IMG/VR virus record: IMGVR_UViG_3300011189_000006 | Span: 1-64,000 of that record | DNA: 64,000 bases | Reading direction: 5' to 3' (one strand) | DNA from: a virus | In this document: one piece after another, positions 3,094-37,789 of the stretch | Layout: every line of letters starts with the position of its first letter | Numbering within the stretch: position 1 is the stretch's first letter | Made by a program: the position numbers and the translations under genes | Notes under the pieces: model-generated | Seen by the model: the letters and a program-made list of their open reading frames with translations, nothing else | What the model was told of the DNA's origin: nothing | The model's database searches: none

Positions 3094-4752
3094 ATGGAAA
3101 AAGAAAGATTATACTTTATAGAGAATGTATTAAAAAATTCACCTAATAGGATTAAAGAATCTTATGTAAGCAAACATTATCCAATAGTATTTGAGCAAAT
3201 AATAGATATAACTAGGGATAAGGATTTCTCATTTAAACAAAGAATTTGGCATTGGGTTTATAATAACACTAATTTCATAAAATGCTACTGTGGTAATAAG
3301 GTATCATTTGGACAATCTTGGAAAGGTGGATATAAAGAATATTGTTCTAACAAATGTTCTTCCAACTCACCAAGTGTTAAAGAAAAGGCAAAAAATACAA
3401 TTGAAGAAAAGTATGGAGTTTCCCACTACTCTAAAACTGATGAGTTTAAAGAAAAATATAAAAAAACTAGTTTGGATAAATATGGTGTTGACAACTATTC
3501 TAAAACCAAAGACTATGTAAATAAGTCTAAAGAAACATATCTTAAAAAGTATGGTGTTGATTCATTTACAAAGACTGAAAAATATAATATAATATCTAGA
3601 AACACATCATTTAAAAAGTATGGAGTTTCCCACTACTCTAAAACGGATGAGTTCAAAGAAAAGTTTTCTAAAACAATGATGGGTAAATACAATTCTGGTT
3701 CTTGCTTTGGTGGAGAGAATTATAGAGGAGAGAACTTTGAAATGTGTAAAAACAATTTATATGTAAAGTATCTAGGTAATGGTATAAGCAAATTTAGGTG
3801 TGATGATGACAAATTGCACACCTTTGATATAAGCACTGATAATTACTTTGGTAGGCTTTATAATTCTAATAAGTTATGCACTGTATGTAGTCCTATTTCT
3901 GACTTAGATTCCATTAAGGAAAAAGAACTATATGAATATGTCAAAAGCATATCATCACATAATGTTGTTAAGAATTATAGGGATAAATACGAAATAGATG
4001 TTTACATACCAGAACTTAGCATAGGCTTTGAATTTAACGGTCTTTATTACCACTCTAACAAGTTTAAAAAGAATAACTATCATATTGTAAAGAAGAACTA
4101 TTTTAAGGACAGAGGGATAAGGATTATACATATATGGGAAGATGATTGGGTAGATAGAAAAGAAATAATAAAATCTCAAATACTATATAATCTTAACAAA
4201 ATAGAAAATAGAGTATATGCTAGAAAATGCATTGTTAAGGAAATATGTACTAAAGCTTCATCTATATTTCTAAACGAAAACCATATACAAGGTACATGTA
4301 ATAGTGTATATAAAATAGGTTTGTTTTATAATGACGAATTGGTTTCTATTATGACGTTCGATAAATTTGAGGGGAGAAAGAAAATGGAAGAAGGTGGTTG
4401 GAATTTAAACAGATACTGTTCTAAAACATACCATAATATAGTTGGTGCACCTTCTAAATTACTAAAACATTTCATAAATGAGAAGAGTCCAATTAGAATT
4501 ATAAGCTATGCAGATTACTATTGGAGTGATGGTAATTTATACGAACAGCTTGGCTTTAAGGAAAAGTATATCACAAAGCCAGATTATAAATATATTGTAA
4601 ATGGTAAGAGGGTTCATAAGTCCAACTATAAGAATAGTAATATTAAAACATCTATGACAGAGAGTGAATACACAAAATCTAATAATATTTACAAAGTTTA
4701 TGATTGTGGTAAAATAAAATATGAATTATTAAAACAAAAAAAAGCCAAATAA
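3094..4752 (+). CDS. Vsr-like homing endonuclease with KYGV repeats
   Basis: The protein has 552 residues. Residues 60-95 contain a Cys cluster (CYCGNK, YCSNKC) that probably binds zinc. Residues about 105-205 hold four copies of a ~30-residue repeat with the core KYGVxxYSKTxE, a DNA-binding repeat seen in phage homing endonucleases. The nuclease core is IGFEFNGLYYHS (310-321) plus HIWEDDW (346-352), as in Vsr-like / EDxHD homing enzymes of the I-Bth0305I type. A C-terminal domain (about 370-540) may help DNA recognition. It is a free-standing gene between tail genes, flanked by terminators. A paralogue lies at 48265-49872. Confidence 0.8.
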   Translation: MEKERLYFIENVLKNSPNRIKESYVSKHYPIVFEQIIDITRDKDFSFKQRIWHWVYNNTNFIKCYCGNKVSFGQSWKGGYKEYCSNKCSSNSPSVKEKAKNTIEEKYGVSHYSKTDEFKEKYKKTSLDKYGVDNYSKTKDYVNKSKETYLKKYGVDSFTKTEKYNIISRNTSFKKYGVSHYSKTDEFKEKFSKTMMGKYNSGSCFGGENYRGENFEMCKNNLYVKYLGNGISKFRCDDDKLHTFDISTDNYFGRLYNSNKLCTVCSPISDLDSIKEKELYEYVKSISSHNVVKNYRDKYEIDVYIPELSIGFEFNGLYYHSNKFKKNNYHIVKKNYFKDRGIRIIHIWEDDWVDRKEIIKSQILYNLNKIENRVYARKCIVKEICTKASSIFLNENHIQGTCNSVYKIGLFYNDELVSIMTFDKFEGRKKMEEGGWNLNRYCSKTYHNIVGAPSKLLKHFINEKSPIRIISYADYYWSDGNLYEQLGFKEKYITKPDYKYIVNGKRVHKSNYKNSNIKTSMTESEYTKSNNIYKVYDCGKIKYELLKQKKAK

Positions 4753-8408: not shown

Positions 8409-8618
8409 ATGAAACTTAGAGATAATGGAATTATAACAAAGGCAGACTATATTGGCAAGACTTTGGGCGAAGCTTCTAAACATGCAGAAAATGGTGGGTA
8501 TGTGACAAGAGTGGTTAGTAACAATGGCCATTCTCCTATGTTAGATATGGATGCTAATCAGAATAGAATGAATTTTATTATTAGTAACGATAGAGTTACT
8601 GATGTATATGGTGGATAA
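8409..8618 (+). CDS. I78-like protease inhibitor domain protein
   Basis: This 69-residue protein fits the pattern of I78 / potato inhibitor I-type peptidase inhibitors: GKTLGEA near the start, an RVV strand (about 39-41), a D-x-x-x-N-R-M-N-F block (about 47-56), and the end VTDVYGG. There is no signal peptide, so it would act in the cytoplasm. A phage could use it against a host or head protease, but the inhibitory role is inferred from pattern similarity only. The gene stands alone between a divergent operon and the tRNA region. Confidence 0.5.
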   Translation: MKLRDNGIITKADYIGKTLGEASKHAENGGYVTRVVSNNGHSPMLDMDANQNRMNFIISNDRVTDVYGG

Positions 8619-8641: not shown

Positions 8642-8672
8642 TTGTGAGAACCATTTAATAGTTTTATATTTG
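8642..8672 (+). promoter_or_regulatory. Host-type (Bacteroidota) promoter for the tRNA region
   Basis: TTG (8642-8644), 20 nt, then TATATTTG (8665-8672). This matches the Bacteroidota vegetative promoter layout of a -33 TTG box and a -7 TAnnTTTG box. It would drive the short ORF at 8743 and possibly the tRNA block beyond. Confidence 0.55.
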
Positions 8673-8727: not shown

Positions 8728-8737
8728 TTAATATATA
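8728..8737 (+). promoter_or_regulatory. Phage promoter motif TTAATATATA, 5 nt from ATG
   Basis: TTAATATATA followed by 5 nt and the ATG of the 32-codon ORF at 8743. A host-type promoter lies 56 nt upstream, so this leader may be transcribed at two times. Confidence 0.5.
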
Positions 8738-8742
8738 GAATA

Positions 8743-8841
8743 ATGAGAACAATTAACACATTTAAGCATTTTAGTAAAAAGTCGTTTTGGTTTAGTCCAA
8801 ACTCGGTAAAGAATGTTATTTGTTCTAATTTTATGATTTGA
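8743..8841 (+). CDS. Short leader ORF upstream of tRNA block 1
   Basis: This 32-codon ORF begins MRTINTFKHF. It directly follows a phage promoter motif and precedes a hairpin terminator that abuts tRNA-Lys. A second unit with the same layout, and a similar first few codons (MKLINT), precedes tRNA-Arg at 9258. Repetition of the layout supports expression, though the product may matter less than the transcript. Function is unknown. Confidence 0.4.
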   Translation: MRTINTFKHFSKKSFWFSPNSVKNVICSNFMI

Positions 8842-8866
8842 TATAAAAATAGTAAAAAATATATTT

Positions 8867-8899
8867 AAAGCCGAGCTTCGAAAGAAATTCGGCTTTTTT
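8867..8899 (+). terminator. Hairpin with T-run before tRNA block 1
   Basis: AAAGCCGA (8867-8874) pairs with TCGGCTTT (8889-8896) and a T-run follows. It ends only 10 nt before tRNA-Lys, so it is either a true terminator of the leader transcript or a processing or attenuation hairpin. Confidence 0.7.
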
Positions 8900-8908
8900 G
8901 TTTTATAT

Positions 8909-8982
8909 AATTCTGTAGCTCAGCTGGTTAGAGCATCTGTCTTTTAAACAGAGGGTCGTGGGTTCGAATCCCACCAGGATTA
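8909..8982 (+). tRNA. tRNA-Lys (UUU)
   Basis: Cloverleaf with acceptor stem AATTCTG/CAGGATT, D-arm GCTC..GAGC, anticodon stem TCTGT/ACAGA with loop CTTTTAA (anticodon TTT), and a T-arm with GGTTCGAATCC. CCA is not encoded. First of four closely spaced tRNAs. Confidence 0.93.
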
Positions 8983-8987
8983 CACAT

Positions 8988-9060
8988 GGAGTAGTAGCTC
9001 AGCTGGTAGAGCACTTGGTTGAAGACCAAGGTGTCGTGGGTTCGAACCCCACCTTCTCCA
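8988..9060 (+). tRNA. tRNA-Phe (GAA)
   Basis: Cloverleaf with acceptor GGAGTAG/CTTCTCC (one T-T mismatch), anticodon stem CTTGG/CCAAG with loop TTGAAGA (anticodon GAA), and T-arm GGTTCGAACCC. No encoded CCA. It starts 5 nt after tRNA-Lys. Confidence 0.93.
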
Positions 9061-9071
9061 CAAGATTAAAT

Positions 9072-9145
9072 GGTGTGTGTAGCTCAGTAGGTAGAGCGTT
9101 GGCTTGTGGTGCCAAAGGTCGGGGGTTCGAAACCCCTCATACACC
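9072..9145 (+). tRNA. tRNA-His (GUG)
   Basis: Acceptor GTGTGTG/CATACAC with the extra G at -1 (9072) and discriminator C73, the identity elements of tRNA-His. Anticodon stem TTGGC/GCCAA, loop TTGTGGT, anticodon GTG. T-arm GGTTCGAAACC. Confidence 0.93.
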
Positions 9146-9154
9146 CTAAATAAT

Positions 9155-9226
9155 ACGGACGTAGTTCAAAGGCTAGAATAACGATCTCCAAAATCGTAGA
9201 TGAGATTTCGAAATTCTCCGTCCGTG
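9155..9226 (+). tRNA. tRNA-Trp (CCA)
   Basis: Acceptor ACGGACG/CGTCCGT, discriminator G. Anticodon stem ACGAT/ATCGT with loop CTCCAAA (anticodon CCA). The T-stem GAGAT/TTCTC has one mismatch. The D-arm is AT-rich and slightly irregular, as in many phage tRNAs. Confidence 0.85.
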
Positions 9227-9242
9227 CTAGAGTTTAATAAAA

Positions 9243-9252
9243 ATAATATATA
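9243..9252 (+). promoter_or_regulatory. Phage promoter motif ATAATATATA, 5 nt from ATG
   Basis: A one-base variant of TTAATATATA at the same 5-nt distance from the ATG at 9258. It would transcribe the second short leader ORF and tRNA block 2. Confidence 0.45.
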
Positions 9253-9257
9253 GTATA

Positions 9258-9329
9258 ATGAAACTTATAAACACATCGAGTAGTTCAAGTCGCTTAATAA
9301 TTTCGAAAGAGATTCGATTGTGTGTGTAA
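9258..9329 (+). CDS. Short leader ORF upstream of tRNA block 2
   Basis: This 23-codon ORF begins MKLINTSSSSS. It has the same surroundings as the ORF at 8743: a promoter motif 5 nt before, a hairpin plus T-run after, then a tRNA. The first 20 bases of both ORFs are alike. It may be a leader transcript rather than a functional peptide. Confidence 0.35.
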   Translation: MKLINTSSSSSRLIISKEIRLCV

Positions 9330-9350
9330 TTATTTTTTAAAAATATTATT

Positions 9351-9381
9351 AGCCTTTCGAATTTATTTGAAAGGCTTTTTT
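9351..9381 (+). terminator. Hairpin with T-run abutting tRNA-Arg
   Basis: AGCCTTTC (9351-9358) pairs with GAAAGGCT (9369-9376), followed by six Ts. tRNA-Arg begins at the very end of the T-run, so the element may act in attenuation or in 5' processing. Confidence 0.7.
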
Positions 9382-9453
9382 AGTTCTATATTTCAACGGA
9401 TAGAATACTCGGCTACGGACCGAGAGATAGGGGTTCGAATCCTCTTAGAACTA
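9382..9453 (+). tRNA. tRNA-Arg (ACG)
   Basis: Acceptor AGTTCTA/TAGAACT, fully paired. Anticodon stem CTCGG/CCGAG, loop CTACGGA, anticodon ACG. T-arm GGTTCGAATCC. Starts directly after the T-run of the preceding hairpin. Confidence 0.92.
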
Positions 9454-9461
9454 CTAATTAT

Positions 9462-9551
9462 GGAAGATTTATCCGAAAGATTCTGGGTAGCGGAGACGGT
9501 CTTGAAAACCGTTTGCTTTAGGGCGTGTGGGTTCGAATCCCACATCTTCCG
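9462..9551 (+). tRNA. tRNA-Ser (UGA)
   Basis: Class II tRNA of 90 nt. Acceptor GGAAGAT/ATCTTCC, discriminator G, anticodon stem ACGGT/ACCGT with loop CTTGAAA (anticodon TGA), a long variable arm, and T-arm GGTTCGAATCC. Confidence 0.92.
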
Positions 9552-9563
9552 CATAATTTTAAT

Positions 9564-9652
9564 GGAAGCGTACTCAATGTTGGCAAAGAGGCTGGTTTGC
9601 TAAACCAGTAGGTCTGTAAAAGGGCGAGTGGGATCGACACCCACCGTTTCCG
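9564..9652 (+). tRNA. tRNA-Ser (GCU)
   Basis: Class II tRNA. Acceptor GGAAGCG/CGTTTCC, discriminator G, anticodon stem CTGGT/ACCAG with loop TTGCTAA (anticodon GCT), and a long variable arm. The T-loop reads GGATCGACACC, slightly atypical. The convergent fibre gene ends at the adjacent base. Confidence 0.88.
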
Positions 9653-11296
9653 CTAGTTTTTTATTAGTTCCTTTAATTCGTCTATTTGCTGTTGTAAGCT
9701 ATCTATCTTATTATTTTGCTCTTTATTCTCATTTTCCTGCTCTGCAAGTTTTAGAGATAAGAAACTATTATAATTAACAGACATCATTCCGTCATCCTCT
9801 GGTTTTTTTACAACTTCTGGATTTATCTTTTCTATTTCTTGGGCTATAGTACCATATACAGTAATCCCTGGTTGGGTTTTTAATTCATAAGAATATACTG
9901 ATTTTGATATCTTTTTAATATTGGTTTTAAGCCTTTTGTCAGAGCCTTCGAAAAAGTTATCTGCTGTAAAATCTCCACTCCAATCTAAATTTTTATCAGA
10001 TGTTAAAGCAAGCCTACCATTATTATCTACTCCAGAGTTTGATGCTAAGTGAAAATCTATATATCTTCCAATCTCCATTAATCCATCGGCACCAACATCA
10101 GGTATAAATGGCCAAGGTATATTTGCATTAGCACCTGCTATACTTAAACCATTTAAAGATGAAGCATCTACATTTGTAATCCGTGATCCATTTCCAATAA
10201 AGTTTTGTGCTGTAACATCGCCGAATGCTCTAAAATTACCCGACCCTCTACTAAATATAAACCTATTTAAAAATGAAGAGCCCGCGTCACGATATATAAT
10301 ATCAGCTCCCATATCAGCTATTAAAGTTGTTCCTGTAGCTTGGTATTTTAAATGACCTACATTACCAAAAGGTGAAGTACCACCTATTTTAAATTGAGAA
10401 TTATCGTTAATAGTTAGTGCACTTCCTGAAAAATTATCACTGGTATTGCTTCTTAAAAAATCATTACTATCTAAACTATCTAAAGTTGCAGCATCTACAT
10501 TTGTAATCTGTGATCCATTTCCAATAAAGTTTTGTGCTGTAACATCGCCATTATAATCCAAATTACCGTTTTCTCTTAAAGTTAGAGATTTGTTAGAAGC
10601 ATCATTTCGTATGCTAAGATCCGAGAACATAGTTATAGGAAATCCAATATAACCTTTGCGTGTTGTTCCGTTAGATTGATAAAATGAATAAAAAGAAGAG
10701 CTATTACTTCCTGGAAGACCTGTTTCAGTAGAACCCTTAATACCAGATCCATTTGGTATTAAAATTTTACTAGAAAAAGTCTTCTCACCATTAATAGTTT
10801 CAACTACACTTCCAGTCGCCCTAACAAAATTCGTACTATCAAAACCATCTAAAGTTTCTGCATCCGTACTTACAGAAATAATACCGTTTGAAATAATAAC
10901 TCCACTACCAATTTTTACACCTCCTAGAACTGCATCCGTTGCTGTTTGTAGGGTATAACCTACACCTGGTATCCTCTCCCAAAAAGTACCATTGTGAATA
11001 ACGTCATCTCCAACATCATATGATATAGACTTATTTCCAGAACTTCCTGAATCGTCTAAATCAGAAGTACCTGCTGTTGTAACTCTATAGTAATGTCCTT
11101 GAACGCCTGTACTATCTGCTAAAGTAGGAGTATTTGTATCTGCGTCCCAAGTGCCTTTATAAACTTGTGATGCAGATATTGGTGTCCATGTTGCGTTTCC
11201 ATCAGAGTCTGTTTTTAAAAAGTAACCATCTACTGCTCCTGATGTTAATTTAATTGTAGGTGCTTCTACGATATCTGCTATTAATTTAGTTGCCAT
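9653..11296 (-). CDS. Tail fibre protein with C-terminal S74 intramolecular chaperone
   Basis: The protein has 547 residues. The last ~110 start with SDKRLKTNIKKI and contain YGTIAQEIEKINPE, the signature of the peptidase S74 chaperone of phage endosialidases and fibres. This domain trimerises the fibre and then cleaves itself off; S and K of the SDKRLK motif are its usual catalytic pair. The C-terminus is a coiled coil (NKIDSLQQQIDELKELI). The body has repeated modules (DVTAQNFIGNGSxITNVDA occurs twice) typical of beta-structured shafts. It likely binds the host surface. Confidence 0.88.
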   Translation of the reverse strand: MATKLIADIVEAPTIKLTSGAVDGYFLKTDSDGNATWTPISASQVYKGTWDADTNTPTLADSTGVQGHYYRVTTAGTSDLDDSGSSGNKSISYDVGDDVIHNGTFWERIPGVGYTLQTATDAVLGGVKIGSGVIISNGIISVSTDAETLDGFDSTNFVRATGSVVETINGEKTFSSKILIPNGSGIKGSTETGLPGSNSSSFYSFYQSNGTTRKGYIGFPITMFSDLSIRNDASNKSLTLRENGNLDYNGDVTAQNFIGNGSQITNVDAATLDSLDSNDFLRSNTSDNFSGSALTINDNSQFKIGGTSPFGNVGHLKYQATGTTLIADMGADIIYRDAGSSFLNRFIFSRGSGNFRAFGDVTAQNFIGNGSRITNVDASSLNGLSIAGANANIPWPFIPDVGADGLMEIGRYIDFHLASNSGVDNNGRLALTSDKNLDWSGDFTADNFFEGSDKRLKTNIKKISKSVYSYELKTQPGITVYGTIAQEIEKINPEVVKKPEDDGMMSVNYNSFLSLKLAEQENENKEQNNKIDSLQQQIDELKELIKN

Positions 11297-28839: not shown

Positions 28840-29584
28840 AAAAGTAATACACGGCGACTGTTTTGACTATATGCCAAATATAGCAAGTAAAAGTATAGAC
28901 TTGATATTTGCAGATTTACCATATGGGACTACTAAGTGTAAGTGGGATTGTATTTTACCACTAGATAAACTATGGTTAGAATATAAGAGAATAATCAAAG
29001 ATGATGGTGCTATATTATTGTTTGCTCAGACACCATTTGATAAAGTTTTGGGAAGCTCTAATTTAGAAATGCTAAGATATGAATGGATATGGGAGAAAAC
29101 ACAATCTACTGGGTTTTTTAATGCAAAGAAAATGCCTATGAAATCGCATGAGAATATTTTGGTATTTTACAAAAAACTACCAACTTACAATCCACAGATG
29201 ACAAATGGGCATAAACCTATGAATTCATATACTAAGAAAGCATCTGTTCAGAATAAGACAAAAATATATGGGAAGGTAGATAAAGATGTAAGTGGGGGTG
29301 GTGAAACAATAAGGTATCCTAGAAGTGTACAGATATTCCCTTCTGATAAGCAAAAAAACAAATTAAATGGAACTATACACCCAACACAAAAGCCGTTAAA
29401 ACTTATAGAGTTTTTCATAAAATCGTATACAAATAAGGATGACTTAGTATTAGATAATGTAGCGGGTAGTGGAACAGTTGCCGTTGCGTGTGAGAACTTA
29501 GAAAGAAATTATATAGTCATTGAAAAGGAAATAGAGTATTATAATATTATATTGAAAAGATTAGAAATTAATAAAAATTTATGA
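28832..29584 (+). CDS. DNA (adenine-N6 or cytosine-N4) methyltransferase
   Basis: The protein has 250 residues. It contains the amino-methyltransferase catalytic motif as FADLPYG (27-32; DLPY in place of the usual DPPY) and near the C-terminus an S-adenosylmethionine site as DNVAGSGT (208-215), followed by ERNYIVIEKE. The order (catalytic motif first, SAM motif last) is that of beta-class enzymes such as those of type II systems. TIHPTQKP (about 184-191) is the usual conserved block before the SAM motif. No restriction enzyme is nearby; it probably protects phage DNA or marks it. Confidence 0.87.
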   Translation: MNKKVIHGDCFDYMPNIASKSIDLIFADLPYGTTKCKWDCILPLDKLWLEYKRIIKDDGAILLFAQTPFDKVLGSSNLEMLRYEWIWEKTQSTGFFNAKKMPMKSHENILVFYKKLPTYNPQMTNGHKPMNSYTKKASVQNKTKIYGKVDKDVSGGGETIRYPRSVQIFPSDKQKNKLNGTIHPTQKPLKLIEFFIKSYTNKDDLVLDNVAGSGTVAVACENLERNYIVIEKEIEYYNIILKRLEINKNL

Positions 29585-29615
29585 AATTACATTAAACATA
29601 GTACTTAGTAAAAAC

Positions 29616-29623
29616 TATAAATA
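29616..29623 (+). promoter_or_regulatory. Possible T4-type late promoter (TATAAATA) before the polymerase fragment
   Basis: A perfect TATAAATA lies 25 nt before the ATG at 29649 in the 64-nt gap between methyltransferase and polymerase fragment. Confidence 0.3.
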
Positions 29624-29648
29624 AAAACGAATAATAAACAAAAACTCT

Positions 29649-30365
29649 ATGAAGGCTGAAACCAAAAAAGAAATAGAGTCATTGAAAAAACAAGCGAGCA
29701 AGCTAAAAAAGGAAGTTGATTACTACAACGCCTTACAGCTTGCTCTTTGTTAACCCCCGCTAATTTATTTAGGGGGGGGTGGATGACTAAAATTAGTATT
29801 AAACGGAAGCTATGGTGCTTTTGCTGCTCCTTACTTTATCTTATATAATAACCACGTTGCTGGTACTATTACATCAGAAGGTAGGGAACTTACAAAAAAG
29901 ATGGACAAAGATAATGAGGACTATTGGTACAAACAATGGCACTTAGACTTTGAATTGCATAAAAAACTATACATTGATAATGTAACACAAATATCTGAAA
30001 AAGAACCAGTTAGTATATATGGTGATAGTGTAGATGGGAAGTCCATTATAAATACACTAGAGGGTAAATTTACGATAAAAGATCTTTATGATAAACAAAA
30101 TAAATTATCTATCAGAAAAGATAAAGAAGTTATACCTGTTAACTTTAAGTCATTAAATTGGACTGATGATGAAAAAATACATTATTCTAAGGTGAAGAAT
30201 ATAATTAGACACAAAACTTCTAAAAAGAAATGGAAAATAAAGAGTGGTGGTAAGGAAATCATTATAACAGAAGATCATTCCCTAATTGTTTTTAGAAATG
30301 GTGAAAAAATGGAAATAAAACCAAAGGAATTAAAAAGTGGTGATAGAGTTATAATACATAATTAA
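29649..30365 (+). CDS. 43: DNA polymerase family B, middle fragment with N-terminal split intein; interrupted by a 39-nt insertion
   Basis: From ATG 29649 the frame encodes a charged helix ending KKEVDYYNALQLAL, then meets TGT TAA. After 39 nt it continues in the same frame from 29787 as KLVLNGSYGAFAAPYF (polymerase motif B) to SIYGD at 30026 (first half of motif C). This aligns with T4 gp43 around VKQMAMKILINSLYGAL. After YGD, 112 residues of intein follow: Ser1 (SVDGKSIINTLEGKFTI), block B (IIITEDHSLIVF), ending GDRVIIHN stop. The frame after the insertion has no start codon before M at 29901, beyond motif B, so the two parts must be joined to make a working polymerase. The N-terminal exonuclease domain is not here. 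Confidence 0.85.
29748..29786 (+). other. 39-nt in-frame insertion with hairpin: candidate ribosomal bypass element
   Basis: Thirteen codons, including TAA (29751-29753) and TGA (29784-29786), lie between CTT (29745-29747) and CTA (29787-29789), both Leu. The insert contains a GC-rich hairpin: C54-58 and CTAA (29760-29763) pair with TTAG (29769-29772) and the G-run, loop TTTAT. An eight-G run is very unusual in this AT-rich DNA. Removing one Leu codon plus the insert restores LQLAL-KLVLNGSYG, matching family B polymerases without gap. The T4 gene 60 bypass has the same parts: matched codons, stop after take-off, hairpin. Confidence 0.6.
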
Positions 30366-30394
30366 AAAGACTATAGACAGAATAGAACTAGCAT

Positions 30395-31711
30395 ATGAAA
30401 AAAGAAAATTATAAACTTTTAGAAATTGAAAGTGTAGAAGAAATTGGAAGCTTTGAGGATGAATACGTATATGATTTAGAAATGGAAGACGAATCACATA
30501 CCTTCATAGCAAATGATATATTAGTACATAACACAGATTCAATTTTTGTATCATTCAAACCATGTATGGATCACTGTGATTGGAAAAATAAAGTATTTAA
30601 CAAAGAGTATTTAAACTCTATTGATAAACCATTCATAGTATTATCAAGAACTAAACTAGATATAGACAATCCAAATTTAGTTGGGAAGATTATATCTAAT
30701 AATAACACGGAAGATGATATTGATAAATTTGAAGAACTTTTAAAAAAGCCACATGATTTAATTTTAATGGATGGGTTTTACTCTAATAACAGAGATATAG
30801 TAAAAATTGTTAAAGACATGAACTTTGGTGATAATCTAATCTGGAACTGGTCTAATGAAGTTGACTTTATCAACGGGATTGACCAAATAAGATTTGCTAA
30901 CTTCTTCAAACAAATGCTTGATGAACATGCTGATAGTTATGGTGTTGAGAATAAAGAAGATTTTGAATTAGAAAGAATATCAGAGTCTATTATCAATATA
31001 GCTAAGAAAAAGTATATCCAACACATATTATTCGAAGATGGAATTCCTTATGAAAGAATGGATTATATATTCCCAAAAGGTGTTGAATTAGTTAGATCAT
31101 CAACACCCGCATTTGCTAGAACTAAGATTGTTGATATTGTAAAGTATTTATTTTCTCACCCAGATACATTTAATATAAAGGATTTGTTAAGATTAGTTAA
31201 AGACCTTAGAAATGAGTTTGAATTAGCAGATATTGATGATATATCAATGCAATCTTCCGTTTCTAAATATGATGTTAAGGTTATAAACGATAAGTCGTTA
31301 CCACTTCAATTTGTAAGTGGTGCACATTTTGCAGTCAAGTCGGCAGCACATCACAACTATCTATTAAACGAGAACAAGTCACTACAAAATAAGTACGAGT
31401 TTATAAAATCTGGGACTAAAATAAAGTACTATGTTTGTAAGGATAAAAAGATAACAGGTATGTTTGCTTATATAAGAGGATCTTATCCTATCGAAATGGC
31501 ACCAGAGATTGACTATGATACACAATTTTCTAAGTCTATACTATCACCTATAAATTCTATTATAGAGCCACTAGGGATGCCAGAAATAACCAAAAGGTTA
31601 TCAGTGGTAATGGATATATTCTCTGGGTTTGGTATGTCACCAAATAAAAAGAAAAATGACGATGATGATTTGGGAGATATTCACGATGATGGCGATGATT
31701 TTCCATGGTAA
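30395..31711 (+). CDS. 43: C-terminal split intein plus C-terminal part of DNA polymerase B
   Basis: The protein has 438 residues. Residues 1-46 are the C-terminal half of an intein: MKKENYKLLEIESVEEIG, block F YVYDLEMEDESHTFIAND, block G ILVHN. Then Thr+1 begins the extein TDSIFVSF, completing polymerase motif C (YGD + TDS). The rest is the palm/thumb of a T4-type polymerase, including VSKYDV (T4: IAKYDV). The end is acidic (DDGDDFPW), likely for clamp binding as in the T4 C-terminus. Only 29 nt separate it from the N-terminal half. The product would be joined by protein trans-splicing. Confidence 0.88.
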   Translation: MKKENYKLLEIESVEEIGSFEDEYVYDLEMEDESHTFIANDILVHNTDSIFVSFKPCMDHCDWKNKVFNKEYLNSIDKPFIVLSRTKLDIDNPNLVGKIISNNNTEDDIDKFEELLKKPHDLILMDGFYSNNRDIVKIVKDMNFGDNLIWNWSNEVDFINGIDQIRFANFFKQMLDEHADSYGVENKEDFELERISESIINIAKKKYIQHILFEDGIPYERMDYIFPKGVELVRSSTPAFARTKIVDIVKYLFSHPDTFNIKDLLRLVKDLRNEFELADIDDISMQSSVSKYDVKVINDKSLPLQFVSGAHFAVKSAAHHNYLLNENKSLQNKYEFIKSGTKIKYYVCKDKKITGMFAYIRGSYPIEMAPEIDYDTQFSKSILSPINSIIEPLGMPEITKRLSVVMDIFSGFGMSPNKKKNDDDDLGDIHDDGDDFPW

Positions 31712-31718
31712 TTAAAAC

Positions 31719-31756
31719 AAAACTCTTACTATTTCATATAATAGTAAGAGTTTTTT
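31719..31756 (+). terminator. Strong rho-independent terminator after polymerase
   Basis: AAAACTCTTACTATT (31719-31733) pairs perfectly with 31740-31754 around a 6-nt loop, followed by Ts: a 15-bp stem. Confidence 0.9.
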
Positions 31757-31760
31757 AATT

Positions 31761-32081
31761 ATGCATATAAGGAAGGAAATAATACAAGGTGTTGAATATA
31801 ATTTCTATAATGATATAGATTATAAAACTGTCTTAAATCACTGTAACGAAGGCACAGATGGGTTTATGTATATTCTTATTAAAGATTTAGAAGAAGAAAG
31901 CAAAAAATTTGAAAGAAGTTCTAAAATAAATAATATATTAAATAATACACCAATACTTACAATTGATAATATAAATAACTCATACATATCATCTTACCTT
32001 TATGGGTCAGAAGACATTGATACATTTTTGAGTATAATAATAGATAAAATAAGAAGAGATTATAATAATACCAAGTACTAG
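31761..32081 (+). CDS. Hypothetical protein
   Basis: The protein has 106 residues, starting 5 nt after the polymerase terminator. A short N-terminal strand region (KEIIQGVEYNFYNDIDYKTV) precedes mostly helical sequence. No known domain. The TnpB element is inserted shortly after its stop. Confidence 0.6.
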   Translation: MHIRKEIIQGVEYNFYNDIDYKTVLNHCNEGTDGFMYILIKDLEEESKKFERSSKINNILNNTPILTIDNINNSYISSYLYGSEDIDTFLSIIIDKIRRDYNNTKY

Positions 32082-32109
32082 GAGAGTAAACCATATATTT
32101 AGTGAACTA

Positions 32110-32132
32110 CTTAACCGCTAAAGGCGGTTAAG
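32110..32132 (-). ncRNA. Right-end hairpin / likely 3' part of the TnpB guide RNA (omega RNA)
   Basis: CTTAACCGC and GCGGTTAAG form a 9-bp stem with a 5-nt loop overlapping the tnpB stop codon. In known TnpB systems the guide RNA covers the tnpB 3' end and right end, and its guide is the flanking DNA. Here the guide would be read leftward from about 32101 (TAAATATATGG...). Confidence 0.5.
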
Positions 32133-33282
32133 TTTCAAGAGTCAACACTTCCTCTAATGAGGACAGTTCGTCATGATTTTCGGTGGCAGTCCCTGACACC
32201 GTATTATTTTTAATTAAAGCAAAGTTTTTAATGTTTATAGCTGCATTAATATCTCTATCATGTTGTGCGTTACACTCCTTACAAGACCACTCACGGTCTT
32301 TAAGCGTTAATTCGTGGTTTATGTCTCCACAACTAGAACAAGTCTTGCTAGAGGGATCGTATCTACCTATTTTAAGTAGATTAACACCATACCAATCACA
32401 TTTGTATTCTAGCATAGTGGTAAACATACCCCACCCAACATCTGAAATAGCCTTGGCTAGTTTTCTATCTTTCATCATGCCTTTAATATCTAAATCTTCT
32501 ATAGCTATAGATTGGTTCTCTTTAACTAGTCTAGAAGATTCCTTATGTAAAAAGTCTTTCCTTTGAAAAGCCGTTTTTTCATGTATTTTTGATAATTTCC
32601 TTTTAGTACGTACTCCTTTGTTTCTAGAGTATTTCCTTTGTGTATATTTTAACTTTGATTCATTATTTTTTAAATATCTAGGATTATTGACTTTATCTCC
32701 TTTTGAGAATACCATAAAATCTTTAATGCCTAAATCTATACCAATGGTCGTCTCAGCTTTTATGACTGGCTTAGGCTTTCTGCCTACACCAGTATCACAT
32801 GATATGCTTACATAATACTTACCAGTTGGTCTTCTAGATATAGTAGCGAACTTTATCGCTCCCTTTGCCGCTCTATGCAACTCAATTTTTATACCTTCTC
32901 TGAATTTAGGTATGGATAGTTTTCCATCATCAAAATATATATTTTGTGGTATATGGAACGATTGCTTACCACTCCATTTAGACTTAAATTTAGGATAGCC
33001 ACTTGTTTTTCTACGAAATCTTTTAAAAGCATTATCTAGGTTTTTAATTGGTGCTTGTAAGGTTTGGCTATTTATTTCTTTTAACCACTCAACATCTTTT
33101 TTAAGACCAGGTATTTGCTTTATTAGGTAGTAACAATCAAAAGGAGTTGTTTTATTTTCGTTAGAAGAATTGTTTACCTCCAACCCTATATTATATATGA
33201 ATCTAGCAGAACCAATATGTTTATTGATTAGTTCTACTTGTTCCTTATTTGGATATAATCTGTACTCAAATGCTCTTAACAT
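32128..33282 (-). CDS. tnpB: TnpB (IS200/IS605 OrfB) RNA-guided nuclease
   Basis: The protein has 384 residues, full length for TnpB. The RuvC triad is intact: D183 in GIDLGIK, E262 in IEDLDI, D344 in HDRDINAA. The zinc finger is C315-x2-C318 and C334-x2-C337. The N-terminus MLRAFEYRLYPNKEQ is the standard TnpB start. TnpB cuts DNA next to a short TAM under guidance of an RNA made from the element's right end. The ATG is preceded by TTAATATATA at 4 nt, like native phage genes, so expression may have adapted to the phage. Confidence 0.93.
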   Translation of the reverse strand: MLRAFEYRLYPNKEQVELINKHIGSARFIYNIGLEVNNSSNENKTTPFDCYYLIKQIPGLKKDVEWLKEINSQTLQAPIKNLDNAFKRFRRKTSGYPKFKSKWSGKQSFHIPQNIYFDDGKLSIPKFREGIKIELHRAAKGAIKFATISRRPTGKYYVSISCDTGVGRKPKPVIKAETTIGIDLGIKDFMVFSKGDKVNNPRYLKNNESKLKYTQRKYSRNKGVRTKRKLSKIHEKTAFQRKDFLHKESSRLVKENQSIAIEDLDIKGMMKDRKLAKAISDVGWGMFTTMLEYKCDWYGVNLLKIGRYDPSSKTCSSCGDINHELTLKDREWSCKECNAQHDRDINAAINIKNFALIKNNTVSGTATENHDELSSLEEVLTLET

Positions 33283-33286
33283 AATG

Positions 33287-33296
33287 TATATATTAA
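33287..33296 (-). promoter_or_regulatory. Phage promoter motif TTAATATATA, 4 nt from tnpB ATG
   Basis: Minus-strand TTAATATATA, then CATT, then the tnpB ATG at 33282. The motif lies inside the element's left end. Confidence 0.5.
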
Positions 33297-33357
33297 TAAA
33301 TATCCCTTCTCTATTACTATTCTAGATTTTATTTGTATATTTGCCTACGCCTTACAT

Positions 33358-33380
33358 CACATCGGCTGAAGACCAATGTG
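33358..33380 (-). repeat. Left-end hairpin of the TnpB element
   Basis: CACATCGG (33358-33365) and CCAATGTG (33373-33380) pair with one mismatch around a 7-nt loop, upstream of tnpB, as expected for the transposase-recognised left end. Confidence 0.55.
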
Positions 33381-33434
33381 TTTCACGACATGATTTTATA
33401 AATTAATATATAGTATATAAAAATAATGTAAAAT

Positions 33435-33935
33435 ATGAATGCCCTTATGAGATATGATGGTTATACATCAAGTGATAGAGTGGATGATTTACTAGATAAA
33501 ATATTAAGATATGGAATTGGTTCTATAACAGAACTTGAAATATCATTTTTAGACTCATATTCATGTAATGAAGAAGAATCCATACATAATATTATAATAA
33601 AAGAAGAATCTGAAAAGGTTTTTGAAGATGATGATAGTAACTTTAGGTTTGAGTATTCACATACTGAAATTCTTGATGAAGAGAGGCATTTTATAGGTAC
33701 TCTATATGTACCAGATATGATTTTAAATAAAAGACATAAAATAGAAGGTATATTAAGTGGTAAAATAATATTATTCCATAATGGTACTACATCACCAGAC
33801 TTTTATCATTTTATTGATAATAAAACACATTACGATGTATTTGAGTTCTGTTCTAGACTAGAATATGAATTAGATATGTTTATTGATTATGTAATAGGTG
33901 AGATAACTAATAATGATTTCGAATCAAAGGTTTAA
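33435..33935 (+). CDS. Hypothetical protein with a Bacteroidota DUF6576-like motif
   Basis: The protein has 166 residues. Residues 14-43 (RVDDLLDKILRYGIGSITEL, then EISFLDSYS) match a short motif common at the end of Bacteroidota rhomboid-like proteins (D-x-I-L-D-K-I-x-x-x-G-x-x-S-L-T-x-x-E-x-x-F-L). The rest is acidic and mixed alpha/beta with no recognised function. A TTAATATATA motif lies 22 nt upstream. The motif hints at gene exchange with the host phylum. Confidence 0.65.
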   Translation: MNALMRYDGYTSSDRVDDLLDKILRYGIGSITELEISFLDSYSCNEEESIHNIIIKEESEKVFEDDDSNFRFEYSHTEILDEERHFIGTLYVPDMILNKRHKIEGILSGKIILFHNGTTSPDFYHFIDNKTHYDVFEFCSRLEYELDMFIDYVIGEITNNDFESKV

Positions 33936-33945
33936 GGTTTAAATT

Positions 33946-34470
33946 TTAAAGATTTCTGGGTAAGTCAGCATCTGTATCTTCTGGCTCTATATTCTCATCA
34001 TCCTCTAAATCGCTATAAAAGTCTTCCTCCTCTAAATAATATTCATCAGATTTTCTTCTTTTTTCTTTCTGTATCTGATTAACATAATAACCAGCGATTA
34101 TAAATTCAGTACCAGCCCAAAGTAAAAACTCTGACATTGTCATAAATTTATAATGGTGTAATAAATATAATACCATACCAGTCTGTCCTATTATAAAACC
34201 AATTGATGATTCAAACCTTTTCTTAGAGAAAAATGATGGCTCATCAGAATATATTTTACAAAATTCTCTAATCACCCATTTCAAATTCATCCAACCAAAG
34301 AATCCGTATATAAATATGTTTCTATTTTTTTTAGTATCAGTACAATTGTCACTACATCTTCTTTTACTAGTACCTGTTTTTAAATTTACTTGAATAGTTT
34401 TATTGCCTCTTGATCTACTCTTTGACACATCTAGGTTAATTACGTATCTCTTTGATTTCTTGTTTTCCAT
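33946..34470 (-). CDS. Membrane protein with acidic tail
   Basis: The protein has 174 residues. A basic N-terminus (MENKKSKRYVINLDVSKSRSRG) is followed by hydrophobic stretches at about 50-65 and, more clearly, 90-105 (GFIIGQTGMVLYLLHH) and 112-130 (EFLLWAGTEFIIAGYYV), then a very acidic end (LEEEDFYSDLEDDENIEPED). Two to three membrane segments. Role unknown. A promoter motif lies 4 nt before the ATG. Confidence 0.65.
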   Translation of the reverse strand: MENKKSKRYVINLDVSKSRSRGNKTIQVNLKTGTSKRRCSDNCTDTKKNRNIFIYGFFGWMNLKWVIREFCKIYSDEPSFFSKKRFESSIGFIIGQTGMVLYLLHHYKFMTMSEFLLWAGTEFIIAGYYVNQIQKEKRRKSDEYYLEEEDFYSDLEDDENIEPEDTDADLPRNL

Positions 34471-34474
34471 ACAG

Positions 34475-34484
34475 TATATATTAT
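34475..34484 (-). promoter_or_regulatory. Phage promoter motif ATAATATATA, 4 nt from ATG
   Basis: Minus-strand ATAATATATA, then CTGT, then the ATG at 34470. A second TTAATATATA on the plus strand (34502-34511) serves the divergent HNH gene. Confidence 0.5.
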
Positions 34485-34525
34485 TTTATGAAAATAGATT
34501 ATTAATATATAAGCCATATTTGATT

Positions 34526-34993
34526 ATGGGCTTAACGAAAACATTACAATCTTTGCTAAAAGAGCAAAACAAACACTTTATATCGGTTGATAATAAGTTT
34601 TTCAAAAGATGGAAATATATTATTATACTTATTATGAAAATGAATCCAAATTATAAACATTGTGTTATATACAGAAAAAGGTATAAAAGACTAAATTACT
34701 TTGTGGTTGTTGGGTTAAAATATAGTGGTGAAAATGTTAAGAGGAGAACTTCGGGATTTGCTAAAAGATATATAAACCGACATAGAAATTATAGATGTAT
34801 ATATTGTGATGATAAGTTAAATTATGATAATGCTACTTCTGATCATATAATACCAATAAGTAGTGGTGGTAATAACACGAAGGTTAATTTAATTGTGTGT
34901 TGTAGATACTGTAACAACGAAAGGGGAAATACTCCATTTAGAGAATACTTAAGATATAAAAACAAAAACTATAGAAGTATAAAATTCATATAG
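34526..34993 (+). CDS. HNH endonuclease
   Basis: 155 residues from ATG 34526; in-frame upstream codons overlap the divergent gene and its promoter. The HNH core is at about 92-140: CIYCDDKL, then SDHIIPISSGGNN, then NLIVCCRYCNNERGN, with two Cys pairs for zinc and the catalytic DH. A basic region (KRRTSGFAKRYINRHRNYR) precedes it. Probably a free-standing homing endonuclease beside the primase gene, or a nicking enzyme. Confidence 0.85.
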   Translation: MGLTKTLQSLLKEQNKHFISVDNKFFKRWKYIIILIMKMNPNYKHCVIYRKRYKRLNYFVVVGLKYSGENVKRRTSGFAKRYINRHRNYRCIYCDDKLNYDNATSDHIIPISSGGNNTKVNLIVCCRYCNNERGNTPFREYLRYKNKNYRSIKFI

Positions 34994-34996
34994 TGT

Positions 34997-36193
34997 TTAT
35001 AAGTATTTTAAAGCCTCTATCTTCTTGGAATAATCAATATCGTTATAATTTGGCTTATATTTGTTTTTAGGAATCCATTTTAAGTCCATGACATCCTTGC
35101 TAAAGAAACCCTCTAGGTCAAGGCTTTTGTAAGCATTTGGTTTTACCTCACATAGTTTATTTAAGTCCTTAACTTTTGATATTTTATGTAACAATCTAAA
35201 TGGGTCTTCAACATTTTTTTTATCAACAATATCTTCAAATAACTTTTTCCATAAAAATACAGGATATCCTTCTATTATTTTTTCTTGTGATTTCTTAAAC
35301 CCTGCTAGGTCATTATCGAAAAAATATCTTAAATCTAAGTCATTAGTTTCTAAGAAGCGATAATCGGTGTTTATACCAACCATACCAAGACTATTAGGAA
35401 AAAATAAAGAATCTAAATATCCCTCAAATATAGTTAGTGGACTAGAAAAGTCTACATTTAATATATTAAAATAGTAAGATAGTTTATTATAGATAACCAT
35501 CTGATTTATATCTGGTTCTTCAACATTTTCTTTACCATGGTTGGTCCATTCTAAAAGGTTTTCATAATTGTATATTTTAAACATTCTTCTTTTCCCCATC
35601 TTCAAATTACGAATTTGCATACCAAGAACCTTATCATCTCTTTTGTTGAGCATTATTATAATCCATTGAGATTCATTTTCGTTTATCCAAAATTTACCTT
35701 GATAAATGTTAGTATGTGCAGAAGGTGGTATTCCTCTATCTACTAGATACTTATATATACCACTATTAGTAACAATTGGCTTAAAATCTGATATCGGTGT
35801 TATATTTTCATTGAATACTCTTTCAAGTTCTGATAAATCAATTAAGTCATCAAACTTAGCATCTACAAAATCATTACTATAATCAGTATATGTCATAACA
35901 CTATCTAGATATTCAATCATTTCTAATTTCTTATCAGGATCTATTTGTTCATTATGGTCTTTGGCAAACTTATCTAATGTAGTTTTTTTATCACAGTTAA
36001 AGCATACGTAAAAAAGTCTATTCAAATATAAGTTCCCTCTCTTAGCATTATTATTATTATGACTATCTCCACAGTAAGGGCATGCAAAATTGAATCTATC
36101 ATTATAATCAATGACTTTTCTTTTCTGTGTGTTAGAAAATTCTTTACTAACTACCTTCTGTATTATATTTTTTATGTAATCTTTATCCATCAT
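34997..36193 (-). CDS. 61: DnaG-type primase (T4 gp61-like)
   Basis: The protein has 398 residues. A zinc finger lies at 38-67 (CPYCGDSHN, then FYVCFNC). The TOPRIM catalytic region is at about 255-305: LTIFEGYLDSLFF with the conserved Glu, and LRYFFDNDLAG with the DxD pair. It makes RNA primers for lagging-strand synthesis with a gp41-type helicase. Length is near T4 gp61 (342). A TATATATATA tract runs directly into the double ATG; the first ATG is used here. Confidence 0.87.
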   Translation of the reverse strand: MMDKDYIKNIIQKVVSKEFSNTQKRKVIDYNDRFNFACPYCGDSHNNNNAKRGNLYLNRLFYVCFNCDKKTTLDKFAKDHNEQIDPDKKLEMIEYLDSVMTYTDYSNDFVDAKFDDLIDLSELERVFNENITPISDFKPIVTNSGIYKYLVDRGIPPSAHTNIYQGKFWINENESQWIIIMLNKRDDKVLGMQIRNLKMGKRRMFKIYNYENLLEWTNHGKENVEEPDINQMVIYNKLSYYFNILNVDFSSPLTIFEGYLDSLFFPNSLGMVGINTDYRFLETNDLDLRYFFDNDLAGFKKSQEKIIEGYPVFLWKKLFEDIVDKKNVEDPFRLLHKISKVKDLNKLCEVKPNAYKSLDLEGFFSKDVMDLKWIPKNKYKPNYNDIDYSKKIEALKYL

Positions 36194-36265
36194 TATATAT
36201 ATAGTTTTAATGTAACTAAGTTCACTATATGATTGACATTTAACTATAATTTGGTATAATGTTGA

Positions 36266-37387
36266 TTAGTTTCCCTCTTTCTTAGAATTTTTATTCTTAT
36301 CTATGCTTTTTCGAGATTTCTTTCCTTTAAATTCCTTATTAAGTTCTCTTCTTTTATCAACTAGTTCTTTAGATAACTTAGCTAAATATTCTGTTTGTTG
36401 GTTATGTTGATTAGCAAAGTCGTCTTGTCTATTATCTGGTCCTTGTGGATAAAGCCTACTAGTCATGTTTCCAAATTGTGTAAGTGATAGTACTGAACTT
36501 TCTTTACCAGGTGTTGATATTTCTTCATCAAACTTTTTAATGGTCTTAGTAACATTGTCAGGATTTTTAGTTCTCTTAACAACATACTTTATAATATTGG
36601 GAAACTTTTCTTTGGTTATGTTAGCTATTAAATCTTCTATGTGTTTGGCATTTTTTAAATCATCATCAGAAAATCCTAATATAGCCTTTATACCAACTCT
36701 ATCAGAAAATGCATTTATCCTATTCTTAAACTCTAGAAGTGCTTCTCCTTTAAGTACTTCTGTATTGGTGGTTATACCACCCCTAGAAGGTGATGAAACA
36801 CCAATAAACTCACAATTCTTTAAATATTTTTTAACTAATTCGTTTTCCGTAGGTATTCCCACTAAAACTCTCTCATATTCTTTTTCATAATTGAACAAAT
36901 ATGCAAATTTTAGTAAGTTATTGTACATTAGGTACAACTCTTCCTCTGTTAGTATATTGTCTATAATCCAAGAAACACCCTTAATTATGGATTCTCTTTC
37001 ATGTCCTCTTGCAGTAATTATAGAAAAAATTGAACCATTTGTCAAACACTCTTTAAAGTCTTGCCAAGATGGTCCATAATTTTCTTTACTAATAGCTTCC
37101 TTCACATCTAATAAAAAAGCATTATCTTCCCTGAGTCCATCGTCTCTGAATTCAGAAAAGGCTTTCTCTGGATTGTTATTAGACAATCGCCATTTATCAG
37201 AAGCATCTCTAACATTTGCATAAAAAGATGTAGAAATGCTTTTTTCAACCCATTTACCATCAACCAACTCTTCCATATGTATCGGTGTTGACATATCTAA
37301 TACGTTATCATCCCAATCGAAACTATAATATAGGAGGTATTTATCCGAACTAGATTCGGATATGTATTGGTTAAAGCTTTTGAGCAT
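36266..37387 (-). CDS. HAD-like protein with head-targeting-like N-terminus
   Basis: The protein has 373 residues. It begins MLKSFNQYISES (I-S-E site), followed by YYSFDWDDNVLDM (21-32), a DxDD/N motif I of HAD phosphatases, and IFSIITARGHE (about 119-129), which looks like motif II. A possible GFSDDDLKN (about 246-254) fits the motif IV region. The C-terminus (330-373) is strongly basic and polar. HAD enzymes remove phosphate from nucleotides, sugars or proteins; the substrate is unknown. Order and spacing of motifs make the fold likely and activity plausible. Confidence 0.65.
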   Translation of the reverse strand: MLKSFNQYISESSSDKYLLYYSFDWDDNVLDMSTPIHMEELVDGKWVEKSISTSFYANVRDASDKWRLSNNNPEKAFSEFRDDGLREDNAFLLDVKEAISKENYGPSWQDFKECLTNGSIFSIITARGHERESIIKGVSWIIDNILTEEELYLMYNNLLKFAYLFNYEKEYERVLVGIPTENELVKKYLKNCEFIGVSSPSRGGITTNTEVLKGEALLEFKNRINAFSDRVGIKAILGFSDDDLKNAKHIEDLIANITKEKFPNIIKYVVKRTKNPDNVTKTIKKFDEEISTPGKESSVLSLTQFGNMTSRLYPQGPDNRQDDFANQHNQQTEYLAKLSKELVDKRRELNKEFKGKKSRKSIDKNKNSKKEGN

Positions 37388-37392
37388 TGGTA

Positions 37393-37701
37393 TTATTTTT
37401 TCCTTTTTGAAAAAGAGTCAAAAGATTCTAATGCAGGAAGCTCTTGTGCTTCATCATCATCTTCATCATCATCTCCTTGAGCCTGTCCTTCTTCATCGAA
37501 GTCATCCTCTTTTTCAAAGTCATCAAAGCCTTGAACATCATCACCTTCTTCTTGTGATTGTCCTTCTTCTTGATCACCTTCTGTCAATTCAATAGTAAAT
37601 TCTTCTACTACTTCATCGTCTTTTTCTGCCTTTACCTCAATAAATCCGTCTTTTTCACAAACTTCGATACAGTAATCGCCTATTTCAATTTTAGTTTTCA
37701 T
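37393..37701 (-). CDS. Very acidic small protein
   Basis: The protein has 102 residues. Residues 1-40 look like a small beta domain (KIEIGDYCIEVCEKDGFIEVKA). Residues 41-88 are a nearly pure Asp/Glu/Gly/Gln tract (GDDDEDDDEAQE). The end reads LPALESFDSFSKRKK. Extreme acidity resembles T4 prohead-core proteins such as gp67 or a DNA mimic; neither is shown. It precedes the HAD-like gene by 5 nt on the same strand. Confidence 0.65.
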   Translation of the reverse strand: MKTKIEIGDYCIEVCEKDGFIEVKAEKDDEVVEEFTIELTEGDQEEGQSQEEGDDVQGFDDFEKEDDFDEEGQAQGDDDEDDDEAQELPALESFDSFSKRKK

Positions 37702-37754
37702 ATAATTAATTATTTTTTATTATATATTAAAAATCTACATCCCTTTTATATAAT

Positions 37755-37789
37755 AAAAATCCACTTGTTTTTAACATAAACAAGTGGAT
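37755..37789 (-). terminator. Rho-independent terminator for the Lys-rich gene
   Basis: A perfect 12-bp stem (37759-37770 with 37778-37789) with a 7-nt loop; read leftward it is followed by TTTTTATTATA. Confidence 0.85.

Follow-up and report, generated by a model that had tools for sequence, protein, structure and literature searches.

What two short open reading frames (ORFs) and two hairpins are doing among the tRNA genes of a phage is the question raised by a 64,000-nucleotide stretch of DNA (hereafter the window), positions 1 to 64,000 of the 91 kb IMG/VR virus record IMGVR_UViG_3300011189_000006. Seven tRNA genes at 8909-9653 are split there by two units, each a short ORF and a terminator, the first preceding tRNAs for Lys, Phe, His and Trp and the second tRNAs for Arg, Ser and Ser. 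The encoded peptides name the amino acids of the tRNAs that follow: leader 1 reads MRTINT-FKHFSKKSFWF-SPNSVKNVICSNFMI and leader 2 reads MKLINT-SSSSSR-LIISKEIRLCV. The match of leader codons to tRNA blocks, the position of these codons relative to a segment able to pair with the terminator, this alternative pairing, the terminator and the recurrence of the arrangement in other phages were all observed computationally, and each unit would very probably act as a ribosome-mediated transcription attenuator controlling a block of phage tRNA genes. Attenuation of tRNA expression, which an earlier note on this DNA had put forward, is strongly supported by the codon match, the antiterminator pairing and the recurrence.

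In the proposed mechanism, RNA polymerase would transcribe the leader and a ribosome would translate the short ORF behind it. With the matching charged tRNAs plentiful, the ribosome would pass region 2, the segment defined solely as the best duplex with the 5' arm of the terminator, and the terminator (regions 3 and 4) would fold and stop transcription before the tRNA genes. With a charged tRNA scarce, the ribosome would stall on a matching codon upstream of region 2, region 2 would pair with region 3, no terminator would form, and the block encoding the missing tRNAs would be transcribed. A leader naming several amino acids would behave as an OR gate, a shortage of any one opening the whole block. 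What we infer is that the ORFs are translated, that ribosomes stall on them, that termination and read-through take place in the cell, and that the natural signal is a shortage of tRNA.

The window by itself proves little, as it holds two units only and the true pairing is one of two by permutation; the case goes beyond chance because of its relatives, not because of the window alone. The earlier note knew of no such arrangement in other phages, and it was found in other phage records, cultured ones included. W01 (LR745206), W02 (LR756502) and W03 (LR756501, 735 kb) were selected by DNA similarity to the window stretch, which in W01 and W02 takes in leader DNA. The IMG/VR records were selected by a neighbouring gene or a start-region DNA pattern, their tRNAs being found via Rfam, and no phage of the blind set was selected by cognate codons. 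The blind detector scanned the last 420 bases of gaps of at least 80 bases before a tRNA, requiring a T-run terminator score of at least 15 and taking the longest ORF of 10-50 amino acids that ended at most 60 bases upstream. It returned 41 rows in ten phages, reduced to 39 leaders by removal of a duplicate (L032, a copy of L061, before the permutation test) and a false positive (L021 in W02, after it). Eight leaders in phi38:1, Panino and phi4:1, one of which (in phi4:1) starts with GTG, were chosen by eye under relaxed criteria, and the counted leaders number 51 in 14 phages overall. Outside the counts are two leaders whose terminators fall short of the cut-off (W01 His/Phe/Trp, L030 881-976; G003 Gly, L061 1950-2027), four Lys leaders, near-copies in the window relatives L006-L010 and Calle_1, and the leaders from the pattern scan described below.

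Leaders of the ORF 1 family recur in W01, W02, W03, G002, G003, G004 and G010, and those of the ORF 2 family in the same phages other than W03. Within the stretches read, counted leader blocks hold 41 of the 57 ARAGORN tRNAs of W01, 43 of 46 in W02, 42 of 59 in W03 and 17 of 37 in LR756504. Examples from W01, W02 and W03 are MNTITNIASYESYYEEG before a Glu/Tyr block, MTTTQQIQQQQINQTD before Gln, MKTINVNIAPVNPQPQDQDP before Pro/Asp, MNNILHINLLNSLCLLGIKLIG before Leu, and a peptide containing TPAPAVAFRRGTGTGTGTCVPAG before an Arg/Thr/Val/Ala/Gly/Pro block.

Matching was evaluated by permuting blocks among the leaders of each phage. For the blind leaders, the true pairing was the single best permutation in each of the six phages that have three or more leaders (W01, 1/720; W02, 1/40320 with the false positive included; W03, 1/24; G002, 1/5040; G003, 1/120; G010, 1/6). 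The same held in phages added later, both by blind detection (LR756504, 1/24) and for leaders picked by eye (phi38:1 and phi4:1, 1/6 each; Panino, 1/2), and a recount added the window, G009, G011 and Gundel at 1/2 each. In total the true pairing ranks first in 14 of 14 phages with at least two counted leaders, in line with the codon enrichment expected of an attenuator; five of these phages have two leaders only and hence a chance of one in two. The choice of Arg codons follows the tRNAs as well. When Arg codons of the leader are counted as far as the end of region 2, 17 of 23 are CGN where the block contains only CGN-type tRNA-Arg, compared with 0 of 12 where it contains only AGR-type, the related leaders in these counts not being independent. 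AGA and AGG make up 410 of the 459 Arg codons in window ORFs of at least 200 amino acids, and the tRNA-Arg(ACG) of unit 2 is of a kind that reads CGC and CGA through inosine.

The matching codons are enriched on one side of region 2 only. Upstream of it, 379 of 735 residues in the 39 leaders are cognate (52%, 18% expected), a value reached in none of 5000 permutations, whereas downstream of it 67 of 344 are (19.5%, 18.9% expected; 2529 of 5000 permutations); in leader 1 of the window, K, F, H or W account for 9 of the 16 upstream residues. When the last cognate codon is placed in the A site, the P-site codon starts 7-18 nucleotides from region 2 in all 39 leaders, and a ribosome stalled there would, given its usual footprint, sit directly against region 2 or overlap no more than its first bases.

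A segment 3' of the control codons with complementarity to the terminator's 5' arm, as predicted for an antiterminator, is likewise present, weakly in some single leaders. Region 2 pairs with its own arm at a mean of -13.2 kcal/mol, compared with -8.6 when the arm comes from another block and -7.3 when the leader is shuffled. The duplex of leader 1 in the window reaches -10.3 kcal/mol, equalled by none of 36 other-block arms, and region 2 of leader 2 is 93% complementary to its terminator arm over 14 nucleotides. The pairing partners covary across phages, being CTCGG/CCGAG in the window, ATTCGA/TCGAAT in W02, AACTTGG/CCAAGTT in G010 and, by eye, GTTCGG/CCGAAC in W01. A fold test was passed by 51 of 51 leaders, but it is partly circular, region 2 being the best duplex, and about 60% of shuffles pass on average; it was rejected as support, being too weak to lean on.

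The arrangement extends to cultured phages. Three leaders occur in Cellulophaga phage phi38:1 (NC_021796): MKTIMNIATDIRTKGVKLLGRSRVL precedes tRNAs for Lys, Ile, Gly, Met, Asp, Thr, Val and Arg(UCU) (Ala by eye), MKTNMTYNNFSWYSNCSFSSYNVERLYLS precedes Ser, Ser, Asn and Phe (Tyr, Trp and Cys by eye), and MNVTLLHQEPLEQLRLPSRVPYYGIDELS precedes Pro, Glu, Gln, His, Leu and Arg(ACG). Together the three blocks cover all 20 amino acids, with four tRNAs read by eye and not called by ARAGORN; Ala, Tyr and Trp are called in phi4:1 and Trp in Calle_1, while tRNA-Cys rests on the reading by eye. The leaders of phi4:1 and Panino have a composition similar to those of phi38:1 and a different sequence. As a separate observation, flavophage tRNA blocks (L097, L106 and two of three blocks in L105) roughly track the first codon base, with Phe, Ser, Tyr, Cys and Trp in a U-first block, Leu, Pro, His, Gln and Arg CGN in a C-first block, and Ile, Met, Thr, Lys, Val, Ala, Asp, Gly and Arg AGR in an A-/G-first block, Glu and Asn being exceptions.

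Tenacibaculum phage Gundel_1 was picked as a new test phage for its ten tRNAs, reported in the accessible portion of PMC8776804. Its leader MKTKLYSYSCFSSWFKNRAG precedes Phe, Ser and Ser (Tyr and Trp by eye) and its leader MKTNNLHIQQNNLPVFLEGFLYM precedes Pro, Gln, Met, Asn and Leu, both with a terminator; the second also contains His and Ile, for which no tRNA was called. A promoter-plus-start scan with the pattern TATATTTGCANTATGAAAACA, N being fixed as G for genome_contigs, gave 78 matches, 21 of them with an ORF of at most 60 amino acids. All nine of these ORFs with tRNAs within 1.8 kb have a terminator, compared with none of the 12 without tRNAs; some of these 12 loci stop shortly past the ORF, so that tRNAs could lie outside. 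By eye, the nine leaders contain residues of their called tRNAs; two share one leader sequence, one is Gundel again, two have a single called tRNA, and two are on one metagenome-assembled Lacinutrix contig, which is perhaps a phage contig. An ORF of 87 amino acids with tRNAs about 0.9 kb downstream exceeded the 60-residue limit and was not counted. Among other probes, a 48-residue flank ORF of phi38:1 matched two contigs, the 69-residue ORF upstream of the window units (8409-8618) gave 81 pattern matches in genome_contigs, none of which was confirmed, and a poly-Gln leader pattern had no match in viral_contigs. Separately, L172 (IMGVR_UViG_3300033552_000002, 95 kb) was seen to carry the leader MKTQNQYEHFFNYSSNRTRIGI before Glu, Tyr, Gln, Phe and His tRNAs.

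Several observations weigh against attenuation or limit its reach. Leaders of one family share ancestry, so that pooled counts overstate independence. The duplex of leader 2 in the window (-9.7 kcal/mol) is equalled or bettered by 4 of 33 other-block arms, and such arms pair equally well in 13 of 33 cases for W02 Arg/Ser, 13 of 36 for G011 Ile/Gly/Ala and 10 of 37 for G002 Asp/Pro. Where the gap is below about 15 nucleotides, the start of region 2 (its first bases) would lie under a ribosome positioned at the last cognate codon. The antiterminator is kept in two of five full-length folds (window unit 2 and phi38:1 leader 0), and termination there would therefore need a ribosome over region 2. 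The mechanism presupposes sufficiently close coupling of transcription and translation in these hosts. A terminator lies between leader ORF and genes by construction in the 41 blind rows, and it is lacking in the four Lys leaders, in which a hairpin follows the stop codon directly and carries no T-run; their peptides (MKTKLKYKR, MKTKRKYKR and MKKKMETKRKR), each before a Lys tRNA block, may depend on a different termination or processing mechanism. No leader was seen at the G010 blocks in L067 and L068, at the W03 Ile/Cys/Asp block, or at a lone annotated tRNA-Tyr elsewhere in Gundel_1. The blind detector recovers only four of the eight leaders picked by eye and one of the two in Gundel.

Alternatively, the short ORFs could be incidental and the hairpins could simply terminate upstream transcripts or mark them for processing, given that T-run hairpins are normal transcript ends, that tRNA precursors require processing, and that the hairpins of the Lys units lack a T-run. 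This is very improbable, as ORFs without a role would neither name the amino acids of the very block they precede, as seen in the phages tested, nor carry the matching codons on the upstream side of region 2, nor agree with the tRNAs in Arg codon box. Nothing specifically favouring a processing signal, the other explanation raised in the earlier note, turned up, and no test aimed at one was made. It is also highly improbable that the peptides act in trans on a target such as RNA polymerase or the ribosome, with a composition that reflects peptide function. The leading residues are alike within leader families and the first Panino leader is annotated as a hypothetical protein, CDS0063, with an earlier start, but the sequences diverge widely between phages while the amino acid set is kept, runs such as QQQQQQQ and SLSLSLSL occur, and the Arg codon choice follows the tRNAs too.

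A T-box-like mechanism, in which the leader RNA itself would detect uncharged tRNA, is scarcely credible. T-box riboswitches resemble the present units in that they sense the charging of specific tRNAs and control translation-related genes by premature termination, but a search of the whole window at Rfam gathering score yields only the tRNA family RF00005, and the leaders carry an ORF with many cognate codons rather than a single specifier; in the present units the sensor would be a translating ribosome. In a variant of attenuation, the leaders would sense amino acid starvation, as in biosynthetic operons, and not tRNA abundance. The architecture is identical, a ribosome stalls whenever charged tRNA is short for whatever reason and cannot distinguish low amino acid from low tRNA, and aminoacyl-tRNA synthetase genes lie in or adjoining a few blocks. 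We nevertheless consider starvation sensing unlikely, as a tRNA gene cannot cure a lack of amino acid (which is reasoning rather than a test result) and a single leader names up to nine amino acids (phi38:1 leader 0). Because the blocks yield tRNA and few enzymes, the quantity controlled by the attenuators would be tRNA supply.

The layout of the two units is given in Table 1. They share the order of motif, short ORF, hairpin and tRNA block that the earlier note had described, and the similarity of their starts extends to 78% identity over 41 bases around both start codons. That a T-run abuts the first tRNA holds for unit 2 (9381/9382) but not for unit 1, where the run ends at 8899 (8904 counting a second run) and tRNA-Lys starts at 8909. 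Terminator 1 is absent from the matches of a simple terminator scan.

Table 1. Positions of promoter-like elements, leaders, terminators and tRNA genes in the window, with the Lys leaders of other stretches in the last row.
Feature	Position	Strand	Remark
TAnnTTTG promoter-like element (TATATTTG)	8665..8672	+	78 nucleotides upstream of ORF 1
AATATATA motif, unit 1	8730..8737	+	Promoter-like, general to the phage and not confined to tRNA units
Leader peptide ORF 1, MRTINTFKHFSKKSFWFSPNSVKNVICSNFMI	8743..8841	+	
Region 2 of leader 1	8796..8807 (core CTCGGT 8802-8807)	+	Pairable with 5' arm of terminator 1
Intrinsic terminator 1 (regions 3 and 4)	8867..8896 (T-run 8894-8899)	+	Hairpin -13.6 kcal/mol
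tRNA-Lys(UUU)	8909..8983	+	
tRNA-Phe(GAA)	8988..9061	+	
tRNA-His(GUG)	9073..9146	+	
tRNA-Trp(CCA)	9155..9227	+	
AATATATA motif, unit 2	9245..9252	+	
Leader peptide ORF 2, MKLINTSSSSSRLIISKEIRLCV	9258..9329	+	Control codons TCG AGT AGT TCA AGT CGC
Region 2 of leader 2	9301..9317 (TTTCGAAAG 9301-9309, AGATTCGA 9310-9317)	+	Pairable with 5' arm of terminator 2
Intrinsic terminator 2 (regions 3 and 4)	9351..9376 (T-run to 9381)	+	Hairpin -12.7 kcal/mol
tRNA-Arg(ACG)	9382..9454	+	
tRNA-Ser(UGA)	9475..9552	+	
tRNA-Ser(GCU)	9564..9653	+	Not among Rfam gathering matches
Lys leaders	L030:1637-1666, L029:1591-1620, L054:2223-2252, L032:7064-7099		Hairpin at or just past stop codon, no T-run

The promoter motif noted earlier before each ORF is present at both, but its core is not specific to these units. 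The exact long form AATATATAGNATAATGA has two sites only in the 91 kb record, one per unit, and was rejected as a promoter mark of tRNA units on finding that the core AATATATA lies at most 45 bases upstream of 30 of the 70 window ORFs of at least 90 amino acids (mean of 2.6 in mononucleotide shuffles); to judge by its distribution, AATATATA looks like a promoter element in general use by this phage. The TAnnTTTG consensus, which we take to be a promoter of the Bacteroidota type, occurs within 160 nucleotides upstream of 30 of the 39 leaders, compared with 13% of random windows. No such site was found within 160 nucleotides upstream of ORF 2, and read-through of unit 1 may also carry transcription into unit 2.

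The phage nature of the window is supported by matches of its DNA polymerase, primase, helicase and SbcD-like proteins to phage families, and those parts of the window that were compared with the phage collection are closest to the huge uncultured phages LR745206 and LR756502. With a moderately sensitive detector, no leader candidate was found in 51 gaps of XacN1 (bases 29000-48990 only), Wyman, KEN37, Cyrano (host assigned by phage name only) and V07, whose named hosts are not Bacteroidota, or in 10 gaps of crAss001, and one doubtful ORF in 25 gaps of Lak-A1 was left uncounted; the detector misses half of the leaders picked by eye and these negatives therefore do not show absence. Phage phi14:2 had no tRNA match. 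A minus-strand ORF before tRNA-Glu in phi38:1, the Lak ORF and a V07 terminator with no ORF were set aside.

Genes for tRNA enzymes of the same amino acids lie in or adjoining some blocks. A W/Y-type synthetase follows the Lys tRNAs of the Trp/His/Phe/Lys blocks in W02 and W03, and a HisRS-type protein follows the corresponding block in G002. In W01, class II (G, H, P, S and T) and AlaRS-type proteins lie between Gly tRNAs past the counted block, and the Ile/Gly/Ala block of G011 is followed by a PP-loop protein that we read as TilS. A Thg1-type tRNA-His guanylyltransferase (Pfam PF04446) was also noted just after Gly and Ala tRNAs in LR745206 (L011:5377-6192). Elsewhere in the window, features seen by eye include a DNA polymerase fragment (30395-31711) that opens with an intein-like C-terminal segment (HTFIANDILVHN, then TDSIFV), which suggests that the polymerase gene carries an intein; a TnpB-like protein on the minus strand (32128-33282) with CxxC zinc-finger pairs near its C-terminus; and two large ORFs (3094-4752 and 48265-49872) with repeated KYGVxxYSKT-like segments and the look of free-standing homing endonucleases.

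The proposed units resemble the trp, his, leu, thr, ilv and pheA attenuators, the theory of which is treated in PMC1183508 (accessible portion), in having a short codon-rich leader ORF, alternative antiterminator and terminator hairpins and a terminator before the genes. They differ from these bacterial amino acid attenuators in that phage tRNA genes are controlled, that one to nine amino acids are named per leader and that the named hosts are Bacteroidota. According to the accessible portion of PMC2965389 (2010), leader peptide systems had been shown only in Proteobacteria and Actinobacteria, to which it added Firmicutes; that portion does not mention 'tRNA gene' or 'phage'. Al-Shayeb et al. 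2020 (PMC7162821) described huge phages, including a genome of 735 kb, and discussed tRNAs and synthetases, and the terms attenuat, leader and terminator are absent from the accessible portion of the text. No earlier description of leader-peptide control of phage tRNA genes appeared among the matches listed (titles and abstracts), which is not proof of absence.

What the phage might gain can be proposed more tentatively. The leaders could be a phage-borne gauge of the host tRNA pool, blocks opening when a listed tRNA is cut, removed or uncharged and replacing tRNAs depleted by tRNA-cleaving host defence or shut-off. A role in defence is suggested because published phage tRNAs replace cleaved host tRNAs: the accessible portions of PMC11555353 and PMC10264068 report that phage tRNAs replace depleted host tRNAs, as do T5 tRNA-Tyr against retron-Eco7 and phage tRNAs insensitive to anticodon nucleases, and they mention neither attenuation nor a leader.

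If the attenuation reading is right, ribosome-mediated attenuation would be extended to tRNA genes, to phages and, to our knowledge, to Bacteroidota. It is directly testable in phages with a named host strain, namely phi38:1 and phi4:1 (Cellulophaga baltica), Calle_1, Panino and Gundel_1, and the leaders would provide ready-made sensors for the depletion of chosen charged tRNAs. Leaders that name their tRNAs would indicate, within the phage sequence, the probable inducing signal. If the leaders are indeed a gauge, they would provide an inducible and self-limiting counter-defence, a new use of attenuation in which tRNA is both signal and product, and the three gates of phi38:1 would jointly cover all 20 amino acids.

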